Shown piece after piece: positions 835 to 36,491 of a stretch of 64,000 nucleotides of DNA. Made by a program: the position numbers and the translations under genes. The stretch's first letter is position 1. Each line of letters opens with the position of its first letter. Origin of the DNA: Micromonospora inyonensis (GTDB lineage Bacteria; Actinomycetota; Actinomycetes; Mycobacteriales; Micromonosporaceae); NCBI RefSeq assembly GCF_900091415.1, contig NZ_FMHU01000001.1:1736001-1800000 (forward strand). The letters run 5' to 3'. Under the pieces are notes generated by a model. It was not told where the DNA came from and made no database searches. It saw only the letters and a list, made by a program, of their open reading frames with translations.

Positions 835-1360
835 CAACTGCTCATACCTCCTCCAGTCCCCTCGGACGGTAGAAATGGGCGGAGTCCGGCACAGTGTGCG
901 AAGGTGGGAACCCATCCCTGACTTCCGTCTCAGCTTCCCCTGCCCCTTGCGGGGCCGCCGTGGGGCGGGAAAATGGTGCCGCTCGTCCGGGTCGAGGTCG
1001 AACCGTCACTGATGCCTGAAGCTCGTGTCTCAGCTTGACCCTGGCAGCCGCGTACTTCGGGAGTCGTGGATTGTTGCCGTAAGAGCACGAGTACCAGATT
1101 CTTTGCCTCCCGCAGCTGCCGGCTCGGACGGCTATGTGATGTCGCGAGGGGAAGGAGACGGCAGGCCGTGGATGTGCTGCATGATCGTTGTGCCGGGTTG
1201 GACATCAGCAAGCGGGACGTGAAGGCGTGCCTGCGGACCCCGGGAACACGGCGTAACCAGCGGCGAAGCGAGGTACGTACGTTCGCCACGACCACCAACG
1301 ACCTGCTAGCGCTGCGGGACTGGCTGGTCGCCGAGCAGGTCAGCCTGGTCGTCATGGAAG

Positions 1361-1384
1361 ACATCCCAGGAGCTTGAATGTCAA
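1361..1384 (-). promoter_or_regulatory. -35 half of a junction promoter formed on IS circularisation
   Basis: The minus strand at 1384-1379 reads TTGACA, overlapping the transposase stop codon. Seventeen bases follow (1378-1362). If the element's ends are joined through its CT core, base 1361, the core and 2860-2858 give TCTAAT. That is a near-consensus TTGACA-17-TCTAAT promoter that does not exist in the integrated form. Circle-junction promoters driving the guide RNA and recombinase are known for IS110 relatives. Confidence 0.7.
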
Positions 1385-2625
1385 GCAGCAGCCTCGTTGA
1401 GGTGATGCGACCAGGCGGTTGCCTCGTCGTACGGGGTGCCGGTTTTGAGGCATCCGTGCAGGATGCCGACGAGTCGGTTGGCGAGCTGGCGCAGCGCGGC
1501 GTTGTAGCTGGCGCCGCGGGCGCGTTGCCGGTCGTAGTAGGCGCGGGCGCCCGGGGAGGCCTTCAACGCGGAGAACGCCTGGGTCATCAGCGCGTCGATG
1601 AGCCGGTCGTTGTGCACGAACCGGGCCGCGACGGTCCTCTTCTTCCCGGACGCGCGGGTGATCGGGCTGGTCGCGGCGTAGTTCTTGCGGGCCTTCGCCG
1701 AGACGTAGCGGGCGTGGTCGTCACCGAACTCAGCGAGCACCCGGGCACCGAGAACCGTGCCCAGTCCGGGCTGGGACAGGATGATCTCAGCGTCCGGGTG
1801 CCGGCCAAAATGGGCCTCCACCTGCCCCTGCAGGACCTTGACCTGCTCGTTGAGGGTGGACAGCAGCGCGATCAGCGCGCGGACCGAGGCCGCGTAGGCG
1901 GCGGTGACCACGGCGGGCTGGCCGAGGTGCTCGGCGCGCAGCGTGGTCTGGATCGCGGCCGCCTTGGCCGGAATGTCACGCCGGCGGGCCCGTTTGAGGG
2001 CCGCGCTGATCTGCGCCAGGCTCAACCGGGCGGCGCTGGCCGGGTCCGGCGCCTTCGCCAGGAGTTCCAGGGTGTCGGCGGCGTCGAGGTCCTCGAACGC
2101 GGCGAGGGCGGCCGGGAAGTACTCCCGCAGCGCATGCCGCAGCCGCTGGCCGGCGCGGGTACGTTCCCAGATCAGCGTCTTGTGCATCCGCGAGACGACC
2201 TTGACCGCCTCCGCATCAGCGCTGTCACCGGCCATCGGGCGCAGTTGGTGCGAGTCGGTACGCACCATGTCCGCCAGCATGTGCGCGTCCGCCGCGTCGC
2301 TCTTGGCCCCGGACACCGCCAGGCGCTCCCGGTAACGGGCCGCCTGCAACGGATTCACCGGATACACCGTGTATCCGGCGGCGACCAGCGCTTGTACCCA
2401 CGGACCCCGATCGGTTTCGATACCGATCCTCACCCGCCCGGACACGTCCTCGGCATCGATGTCGTCACCGAGCGCCTGACCGATCATCGCGTGCAGCCTC
2501 GTCATGCCCGCCATGCCTTCCGGCAGTCGGGCCTTGGCCAGCCGGCGACCGGACGCGTCCATCACCTCGACGTCGTGGTGGTCCTCCGCCCAGTCATCTC
2601 CCACGAACAGCAACACGTCTCCCAC
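1381..2625 (-). CDS. IS110-family DEDD transposase / bridge-RNA-guided recombinase
   Basis: Complete 414-aa recombinase. The N-terminal RuvC-like DEDD domain shows Asp in FVGDDWAEDHHDV, Glu in RIGIETDRGPWV and the Asp pair in GAKSDAADAHMLA. The central part is helical. The C-terminal Transposase_20 domain includes LSQPGLGTVLGARVLAEFGD and the TSPITRASGKKRTV segment that carries the catalytic serine in this family. Length is typical. Known IS110 enzymes excise as a circle and insert at a site chosen by an RNA made from the element's non-coding end. All catalytic positions are present, so it is probably active. Confidence 0.92.
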   Translation of the reverse strand: MGDVLLFVGDDWAEDHHDVEVMDASGRRLAKARLPEGMAGMTRLHAMIGQALGDDIDAEDVSGRVRIGIETDRGPWVQALVAAGYTVYPVNPLQAARYRERLAVSGAKSDAADAHMLADMVRTDSHQLRPMAGDSADAEAVKVVSRMHKTLIWERTRAGQRLRHALREYFPAALAAFEDLDAADTLELLAKAPDPASAARLSLAQISAALKRARRRDIPAKAAAIQTTLRAEHLGQPAVVTAAYAASVRALIALLSTLNEQVKVLQGQVEAHFGRHPDAEIILSQPGLGTVLGARVLAEFGDDHARYVSAKARKNYAATSPITRASGKKRTVAARFVHNDRLIDALMTQAFSALKASPGARAYYDRQRARGASYNAALRQLANRLVGILHGCLKTGTPYDEATAWSHHLNEAAA

Positions 2626-2639
2626 CTTCCGAGCCGATC

Positions 2640-2851
2640 ACCTTCGGTAGCCAGGAGGAGAACCATCAGCGACCTAATGAAGCAGTGCTCACGCCGCGAC
2701 CGGGCGGGCACGACATCCCATCAGCGATCAACTCTCCACACCGACCGACAGCGGCACGCTCTTTCATCAGGACTCCACGTCCAGGCACCACGAGTGCTCG
2801 CCTGCCGGCGGCTACCTACCCACCAGGAGTTTGCCGGATGGCTCACTCCCA
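2640..2851 (-). ncRNA. Predicted IS110 bridge RNA with target and donor guides
   Basis: Non-coding left end of the inner element, upstream of its transposase. Read 5' to 3' on the minus strand it contains, in the published bridge-RNA order, four segments. (1) 2789-2783 reads GGTGCCT, identical to the left half of the target including the CT core. (2) 2769-2761 can pair with the right half of the target at 7 of 9 positions. (3) 2720-2712 reads TGGGATGTC, identical to the end of the element before the core. (4) 2680-2674 reads TCATTAG, complementary to the start of the element including the core. The exact RNA ends are inferred. Confidence 0.75.
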
Positions 2852-4080
2852 GAACTCATTAGGCACCGGCGACTACTGGCGGGCCCCGTACTACCTGCTC
2901 GAAGACGCCCTGAACGTGGAGTTGGTCAACGCTCGGCAGGTCAAGGCGATGCCCGGACGCAAGACCGATGTGGCCGATGCGGTGTGGCTGGCACAACTGG
3001 CCGAGTGCGGGTTGCTACGGGCCAGCTTCGTGCCGCCCGAGCCGATCCGCCAGCTTCGCGATCTGACGCGGTACCGCACGGTACTGACCGAAGAGCGTAC
3101 CCGGGAGGCCCAGCGGCTGGAGAAGGAGTTGGAGGACGCCGGGATCAAGCTGTCCAGCTTCGCCACCGACATCCTCGGTATCTCCGGGCGCGCCATGTTG
3201 GAAGCGCTCATCCGTGGAGAGCGCGACGCGCAGGTATTGGCGGAGATGGCGCGAGGCCGGATGCGGTCCAAGATTCCTGACCTGGCCCAGGCGATGATCG
3301 GCCGCTTCGGTGATCACCACGCGTTCCTGTGCCGGATGCATCTGGACCGCATCGATGCCATCAGCCGGGACATCGCCACGTTGAGCACCCGGATCGAGCG
3401 GGTGATGGCACCCTTTCGTGACCAGCTGACCCGGTTGGATGGCATTCCCGGGATCAGCCTCCGGGTCGCTGAGGTGATCATCGCGGAGACCGGTGGGGAC
3501 ATGTCCCGGTTCCCCACCGCCGGGCATCTGGCCTCCTGGGCCGGGGTGTCGCCCGGTAACCACGAATCCGGCGGCAAACGCAAGTCCGGCAAGACCACCA
3601 AAGGCAACCGGTGGCTGCGCGACGCCCTCGGCACCGCCGCGATGGCCGCGGCCCGTTCCAAGAACACCTACCTCGGCGCCCAGTACACCCGCCTCGTACG
3701 CCGACTCGGCAGCAAACCCAAGGCCCTGGTCGCCTTGGAACACTCCATCCTGACCTCCGTATGGCACATGCTCACCGACGGAACCGGCTACCAGGACCTC
3801 GGCGCCGACCACTTCCTACGCCGCGACCCCGAACGCGAACGCCGCCGCGCGATCGCCGCACTGAACAAGCTCGGCTACACCGTCACCCTCAACCCGATCG
3901 AACCCACCACGAAAGCCGCGTGAACAGGTAAGACGATCAGTCACGGTCGTTATTTTCGTACCAGCCACCGCACAGACGGAGGTGCTGGAATGGGTGACAA
4001 GACCGCCGACGGGCCGCACCTCCCGGCGCCCGCCGGAGCCGCCGACGCCCCCGGCCCGCCGATCGGCGCACCGAACCCGG

Positions 4081-34791: not shown

Positions 34792-36491
34792 TCGAACTGG
34801 ACCGTCGGCGCTATGCCGAGCTGTACGGACCCACCACCGGCGACCGGATCCGGCTCGCCGACACCGACCTGCTCATCGAGGTGGAGGTCGACCACTGCTT
34901 CGGCGGGGACGAGGTGGTCTTCGGCGGCGGCAAGGTGATCCGGGAGTCGATGGGGCAGTCCCGGGCCACCCGGGCCGAGGGTGCCCTCGACACGGTGATC
35001 ACGGGGGCCGTCGTGCTCGATCACTGGGGCGTGGTGAAGGCCGACGTCGGCATCCGGGACGGCCGGATCGTGGCGCTCGGCCGAGCCGGCAACCCGGACA
35101 CCATGACCGGCGTGCACCCTGACCTGGTGATCGGCCCGGCCACCGAGGTCATCGCCGGCAACGGACGGATCCTCACCGCGGGCGCCATCGACACCCACGT
35201 GCACTTCATCTGCCCACAGCTCGTCCAAGAGGCGCTCGCCGGCGGGATCACCACGCTGGTCGGGGGCGGCACCGGCCCGGCCGAGGGCAGCAAGGCGACC
35301 ACGGTCACCCCGAACGCTTGGCATTTGGCGCGGATGCACGAGGCCCTCGACACGTTCCCGGTCAACGTGCTGCTGCTGGGCAAAGGCAACACGGTCTCCA
35401 CCGAGGCGCTCTGGGAGCAGTTACGTGCCGGGGCCGGCGGGTTCAAGCTGCACGAGGACTGGGGCACCACGCCGGCTGCGATCGACACCTGCCTGCGGGT
35501 GGCCGACGCATCCGGGGTGCAGGTGTCCATCCACACCGACACCCTCAACGAGGCCGGCTTCGTCGCCGACACGCTGCGCGCGATCGGCGGACGAGCGATC
35601 CACTCCTACCACACCGAGGGAGCTGGCGGCGGGCACGCCCCGGACATCATCACCCTGGCCGCCGAGCCGAACGTGCTGCCGTCGTCGACCAACCCGACCC
35701 GCCCGTACACCCGCAACACCCTGGCCGAGCACCTGGACATGCTGATGGTCTGCCATCACCTCAACCCGGCGGTGCCGGAAGACCTCGCCTTCGCGGAGAG
35801 CCGGATCCGGCCGTCCACCATGGCCGCCGAGGATCTGCTGCACGACCTCGGCGCGATCTCCATCATCGGCTCCGACTCACAGGCCATGGGCCGGATCGGC
35901 GAGGTGGTCACCCGCACCTGGCAGAGCGCCCACGTGATGAAGCGGCGGGTCGGTCCGCTGCCCGGGGACGGGCGGGCCGACAACCACCGGGCTCGCCGGT
36001 ACGTCGCGAAGTACACCATCTGCGCGGCGATGGCCAACGGCCTGGAGCGGGAGATCGGCTCGGTCGAGCCGGGCAAGCTGGCCGACCTGGTGCTCTGGGA
36101 GCCGGCCTTCTTCGGCGTCCGGCCGCACCTGGTGATCAAGGGCGGGATGATCGCGTACGCGCAGCTGGGCGACGCGAACGCCTCGATCCCCACCCCGCAA
36201 CCGGTGCTGCCGCGGCCGATGTTCGGTGCGTACGGGGCGGTGCCCGCCGCGACCAGCGTGGCGTTCGTCGCGCCGGCCGCGCTCGAGGCCGGACTGCGGT
36301 TGGACGTACGGCGACCGCTGGTGCCGGTGGGTGACGTGCGGTCGCGGGGAAAGGCCGACCTGCCGGAGAACGGCGCGATGCCGAGGATCGAGGTGGACCC
36401 GGACACCTTCACCGTCCGGATCGACGGCGTGGTGGTCGAGCCGGACCCGGTCACCGAGCTGCCCATGGCACAGCGGTACCACCTGTTCTGA
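34788..36491 (+). CDS. ureC: Urease alpha (catalytic) subunit
   Basis: Nickel amidohydrolase that hydrolyses urea to ammonia and carbamate. Visible active-site elements: [14 protein letters not shown] (nickel His pair), [15 protein letters not shown] (carbamylated bridging Lys), [33 protein letters not shown] (nickel His), [20 protein letters not shown] (flap with catalytic Cys/His) and [14 protein letters not shown] (nickel Asp). 567 aa, full length and with no missing residue seen. Confidence 0.97.

Follow-up and report, generated by a model that had tools for sequence, protein, structure and literature searches.

A predicted bridge RNA and its guide segments in an IS110-group insertion sequence of Micromonospora inyonensis

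The bridge-RNA mechanism of IS110-group elements is itself already in print; guide-target covariation over thousands of elements, a rebuilt promoter, and bridge RNAs predicted in 85.7% of IS110s are described in the pertinent sections of one report (PMC11208160). With IS621, an IS110-group element of Escherichia coli, the element treated here has in common the left-end RNA and its two internal loops (both predicted here), the guide order LTG-RTG-LDG-RDG, and the CT core, as well as a promoter at the joined ends, DEDD and serine residues in the recombinase, and handshake pairing beside the core (PMC11208160; PMC11208158). ISEc21 and ISEc11 likewise have a non-coding-region RNA (seekRNA) that matches the two strands of the target, for ISEc21 in the order of IS110 elements. 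The seekRNA described for ISEc21 has 74 nt, shorter than the RNA predicted here, which has a target loop and a donor loop; the same source reports natural retargeting for ISEc11 and ISXne4 (PMC11187229). IS110 of Streptomyces coelicolor, belonging to a subgroup with transposases of 395-455 aa, comes from the same host class and has a similar recombinase length, a likeness that we draw from its description in that source (PMC11187229).

We analyzed a stretch of 64,000 nucleotides (the window) from the 6.92-Mb genome of M. inyonensis (G000). It contains, at a probability of roughly 0.95, an insertion sequence of the IS110 group that is mobilized by recombination under the guidance of a bridge RNA. 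The element clearly adds a new member to an RNA-guided recombination system described only recently and is no new kind of system. Its anatomy, its copies and their sites, the tracking of flanks by guides, the covarying stems, and the conserved junction promoter were all computed here. The main features, in window positions, are as follows.

1361..2862, minus strand: whole insertion sequence, 1502 bp, delimited by five identical genome copies and by empty sites in L016, L018, L019, and L020
1381..2625, minus strand: IS110-family recombinase, 414 aa, from profile matches, structural relatives, and catalytic residues
2640..2851, minus strand: predicted bridge RNA with a covariance model match, its start taken from the junction promoter and its 3' end uncertain
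931..3961, plus strand: second IS110-family element, IS110-B, with its recombinase gene in two parts (about 1168-1360 and 2863-3923)

The recombinase exceeded the cut-off of NCBIfam NF033542 (171.5 versus 140 bits), and both Pfam IS110 domains, PF01548 and PF02371, were above the Pfam cut-off, as is typical of the DEDD recombinases of the IS110 group. Solved structures related to it are those of IS621 (8wt6) and ISCro4 (9t56). The IS621 residues D11, E60, D102, D105, S241, and G242 (PMC11208158) correspond to D11, E70, D110, D113, S326, and G327, where E70 was assigned by motif and the printed alignment is shifted at this residue; D11, E70, D110, D113, and S326 are the counterparts of catalytic residues of IS621. 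The recombinase is 414 aa long, whereas that of IS621 has about 326 to 330 aa, and the sequence match between them is weak (3.4e-10). Among the best-matching named relatives (the best 80 of 397) is Micromonospora sicca, with a 94% identical recombinase.

A non-coding left end of 237 nt lies between the recombinase gene and the element end, and the right end measures 20 nt; a long left end upstream of the gene with a short right end is the arrangement of the IS110 group. One copy of the CT core is inside the element (2861-2862) and a second is at 1359-1360, while the uninterrupted copies of the host gene at the four loci named above show the empty site with a single CT core. Insertion thus occurs, as in the IS110 group, at a short core common to both ends and single in the empty site.

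An earlier note, made by reading the sequence of the left end, had proposed four guide segments in the order known for IS110 bridge RNAs, with a CT core. All four matches were found where it had placed them. The guide order, the CT core, the placement in the left end upstream of the recombinase gene, and a first internal loop with both target guides correspond to what has been published for bridge RNAs of the IS110 group.

2783..2791, minus strand: left target guide GUGGUGCCU, from its flank match
2761..2769, minus strand: right target guide UGAUGAAAG, from its flank match
2712..2720, minus strand: left donor guide UGGGAUGUC, from its element-end match
2674..2680, minus strand: right donor guide UCAUUAG, from its element-end match
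2673, minus strand: handshake position, a donor-loop G whose partner is the C at window 2863, target base -1
2770..2782, minus strand: hairpin capping the target loop (GGAC...GUCC), from the fold and the consensus
2685..2711, minus strand: hairpin capping the donor loop, from the consensus

The AGGCACC at 2783-2789 is identical to the right flank at 2861-2867, including the core (7/7), and the full 9-nt left target guide, extending to 2791, agrees with the flank at 7/9 positions, as does the right target guide with the left flank (7/9). On the donor side, the DNA of the left guide (GACATCCCA) equals 1360-1368 at 9/9, and CTAATGA of the right guide is complementary to 2856-2862 at 7/7. Such matches might arise by chance in a GC-rich left end that happens to contain short flank-like words. 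In 20,000 first-order Markov sequences built from the left-end RNA, the target matches occurred at rates of 5.3% (left), 24% (right), and 1.2% (both), and the donor matches at 0.4%, 0.1%, and 0.005%, respectively. The donor pair is thus strong at this locus alone; the target pair by itself is only moderately unlikely there. The target half becomes decisive because other copies in the genome and relatives agree with it.

Five copies in the genome (L001 to L005, of which L004 is the window copy) are identical over 1502 bp. Besides, L006/L011 is an interrupted copy, L007 is 89% identical and has no recognizable left end, and L010 is a 224-nt left-end piece. The copies have six distinct left targets, one of them common to L001 and L003; each ends in C-CT, and in four of the six the core is preceded by GGNGC. 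The nine-base left guide agrees with these targets at 4, 6, 7, 8, 7, and 7 of 9 positions, most weakly at L001/L003 (4/9) and L002 (6/9). The right target guide calls for CT-TTC, which is found in five of the six distinct right sides; the window copy has CT-TCC and is thus mismatched beside the core region. The right guide of L007 differs from that of the window by one base, and the L007 flank carries the matching base. The target motif GGNGCCTTTC was not enriched in G000, with 16 unbroken matches versus 22 for the reversed control pattern. By prediction, these 16 matches (four read GGTGCCTTTC) would be sites still open to the element.

For comparison among relatives, the best 80 of 397 recombinase relatives were retained as named loci, and among 160 congeneric genomes scanned at the DNA level, 152 gave matches, many of them short and weak. 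An RNA search by regular expression matched 16 of 142 sequences, and a covariance model was used instead. This model, built from 26 left ends, matched the window at 2632-2816 with 198.4 bits, the window being one of the 26 sequences. It had 98 matching places in 99 loci and 15 in 23 sources. We retained 95 of the 113 matches. Those left out comprised nine without a recognized left donor guide, five without a right target guide (including L140), one without a right donor guide, and three repeats of other loci. A class-wide search detected the RNA in 14 of 148 genomes, one of them G000, and in 12 of 81 genera. At L129 973-2969, on a plasmid of Candidatus Mycobacterium methanotrophicum, two model matches are 1.8 kb apart and a related recombinase flanks the first.

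Guide-flank tracking was tested with 88 left and 85 right ends out of 94, the window row, a repeat of L004, having been set aside. The target test is not circular, because element ends were placed by the donor guides. On the left, 390 of 553 non-core positions agreed over 79 distinct pairs (0.705; shuffled, 0.379), and on the right, 351 of 504 positions over 72 distinct pairs (0.696; shuffled, 0.379); neither level was reached in 10,000 guide shuffles, which ignore relatedness. With one pair per guide, the values were 0.709 versus 0.364 for 51 left guides and 0.695 versus 0.329 for 30 right guides (0/10,000 shuffles). Left agreement increases toward the core. Right agreement spans the core and about five bases, more than the four-base RTG of IS621, and then falls to the cross-paired level. 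Furthermore, a held-out set from the class-wide model search, none of whose 15 guides is present in the first set, showed agreement at 76 of 105 left positions (shuffled, 0.333; 0/10,000, relatedness ignored). These 15 distinct pairs came from 23 matches, six being without a single CTAA site, L149 repeating L119, and L170 repeating a pair. Chance matching was rejected by the shuffled-guide tests on both the first set and the held-out pairs, and we regard it as practically out of the question. The guides of the two predicted loops match both strands of target and donor and covary with them, as bridge RNA guides do. That relatives' loops might fail to track their own targets had been named in advance as grounds for abandoning the bridge-RNA interpretation; tracking was seen instead, and the interpretation as a whole is supported by guide order, core, left-end position, target loop, and tracking. 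The relatives' guides, of which 51 on the left and 30 on the right are distinct among the pairs tested, provide material for testing target rules and for finding further programmable recombinases, and the element is a clean multi-copy bridge-RNA example in high-GC actinobacteria, with a recombinase longer than that of IS621.

Another explanation is that the left-end segments are DNA sites, either bound by the recombinase or remnants of earlier recombination, and that there is no RNA. It gains some ground from the single-sequence fold, which is ordinary: the window RNA was no more stable than its dinucleotide shuffles (z, -0.35; 68/200). In that fold, however, the target guides are on opposite sides of one internal loop, the first, where each faces its own strand for pairing. 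The alignment also speaks against DNA sites, since its stems covary: pairing holds in 95.8% of the cells of alignment A1, both sides have changed in 14 of the 36 pairs, and none of 500 shuffles matched A1 on any of five measures, for a structure derived from the same alignment. The proposal that the guides occupy two internal loops was borne out only in part: the target guides are open, but the donor guides are partly paired in the free RNA; the mean unpaired fractions in the free-RNA ensemble were 0.70 and 0.65 for the target guides, 0.44 and 0.19 for the donor guides, and 0.34 for the whole RNA. In the alignment-based consensus, the right donor guide is unpaired and the left donor guide is paired at three bases. 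Rfam contained no family for the RNA at the gathering threshold over the window or with E up to 1 over 2600-2900. Elsewhere in the window (34940-35232), the Rfam family 5_ureB_sRNA matched with 55.9 bits (gathering score, 40), a match that may simply reflect conservation of ureB coding sequence.

A promoter well placed at the joined ends of the element is likewise unexpected of mere DNA sites.

1379..1384, minus strand: -35 box TTGACA in the right end, for the circular form, from the joined-end sequence
2858..2862, minus strand: CTAAT, completed by the T at 1361 to the -10 box TCTAAT when the ends are joined; its spacing to the -35 box is 17 nt

The joined ends thus read TTGACA-N17-TCTAAT. Among 57 distinct junctions, a -35 box with at least 5/6 identity is exactly 17 nt away in 48 and 18 nt away in 8, the remaining one having 4/6, and TCTAAT is found in 49 (L009 and L046 have misplaced left ends). 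In the control, the flanks of inserted copies, a 5/6 box at 17 nt occurred in 1 of 56. As judged from sequence, the element therefore has the promoter across joined ends that is known from bridge RNAs. Related elements also use an RNA, according to the parts of two reports concerned with them (PMC11208160, PMC11187229), and we consider the explanation by DNA sites very improbable.

Under bridge-RNA-guided recombination, excision would join the element ends and create the promoter, from which a left-end RNA of about 210 nt would be made. Its first loop would pair with both target strands through the left guide GUGGUGCCU and the right guide UGAUGAAAG, and its second loop with the joined donor ends through UGGGAUGUC and UCAUUAG, whereupon the DEDD/serine recombinase would swap strands at the CT core. 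Transcription, RNA binding, and catalysis are steps that we infer from the studied relatives IS621 and ISEc21.

The donor side was also compared among relatives. The left end was located by CTAA alone for 64 distinct rows; in 62 of them its sixth base (G, 33; C, 22; A, 7) and in 58 its seventh base agreed with the right donor guide. Handshake pairing and its covariation have been described for IS110 orthologues in the corresponding section of a previous report (PMC11208158). For the handshake count, 105 of 136 matches were used, 93 of them distinct, and 31 were left out. In 92 of the 93 distinct rows, the base directly following the right donor guide can form a standard pair with target base -1 (G-C, 77; A-T, 7; T-A, 3; C-G, 1; wobble, 4), L092 being the sole exception; shuffles gave a mean of 76.8, and 0 of 10,000 reached 92, relatedness being ignored. 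The following base gave no signal against the target (35/93; shuffled, 35.4), and the element thus differs from IS621 in lacking a handshake signal at target base -2. Target base -1 is other than C in only 16 of the 93 rows, and the number of independent switches is smaller than 16 because some of these rows are related. We are inclined to think that retargeting in this clade reaches beyond the target loop: the donor-loop base beside the right donor guide would have to match target base -1, with RNA G, U, C, and A against target C, A, G, and T, which would link both loops. If this is true, the clade would offer a natural series in which to follow the change of target by a bridge RNA and the range of targets that a given donor loop accepts.

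The element splits the recombinase gene of IS110-B at the Glu codon of VMEGTGDYW, a residue that would be catalytic by analogy with IS621. Such a site raises the question of whether the element is aimed at rival IS110 recombinase genes, its guide serving competition among mobile elements. The window copy and the L001/L003 site are indeed within IS110-family recombinase genes, L002 is beside a fragment, and L091 is nested. However, the flanks of L005, L006/L011, L010 (left), and L007 (right) contain no IS110-like protein, any IS110-like match within 600 nt was present in just 11 of 89 rows (the window row and L004 stand for a single copy), and the two host genes were entered at different positions. 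Besides, an element that lands in another insertion sequence does next to no harm and hence survives. Aiming at rivals is very unlikely in our judgment, and we read the nesting as survival of harmless insertions, because those flanks of L005, L006/L011, L007, and L010 are without an IS110-like protein.

IS110-B seems to have its own readable bridge RNA with a CA core (window 1025-1033 and 1089-1097); as read by eye, its left target (GTCTCA) has a likeness in GTGTCTCAG and its right end (GTACCAG) in GAGTACCAG. Among the papers listed by a search on nested or tandem IS110, none contained the term "bridge RNA." Two IS110-B copies are arranged head to tail with one common core at L144 4155-7213, and the same flank precedes the first of these copies and the copy in L145, so that the end of some other IS110 element may have been their target. 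A 3.1-kb stretch in which the element is inside an IS110-family element occurs at L142 2957-6100 and L143 3041-6183; this nested pair seems to have been moved or copied as a unit, because the stretch is present twice at 99.1% identity. At L146 2122-4679, the L002 copy lies, in the opposite orientation, next to a piece of the same host element whose break is close to the site of insertion, an arrangement that perhaps reflects recombination between copies.
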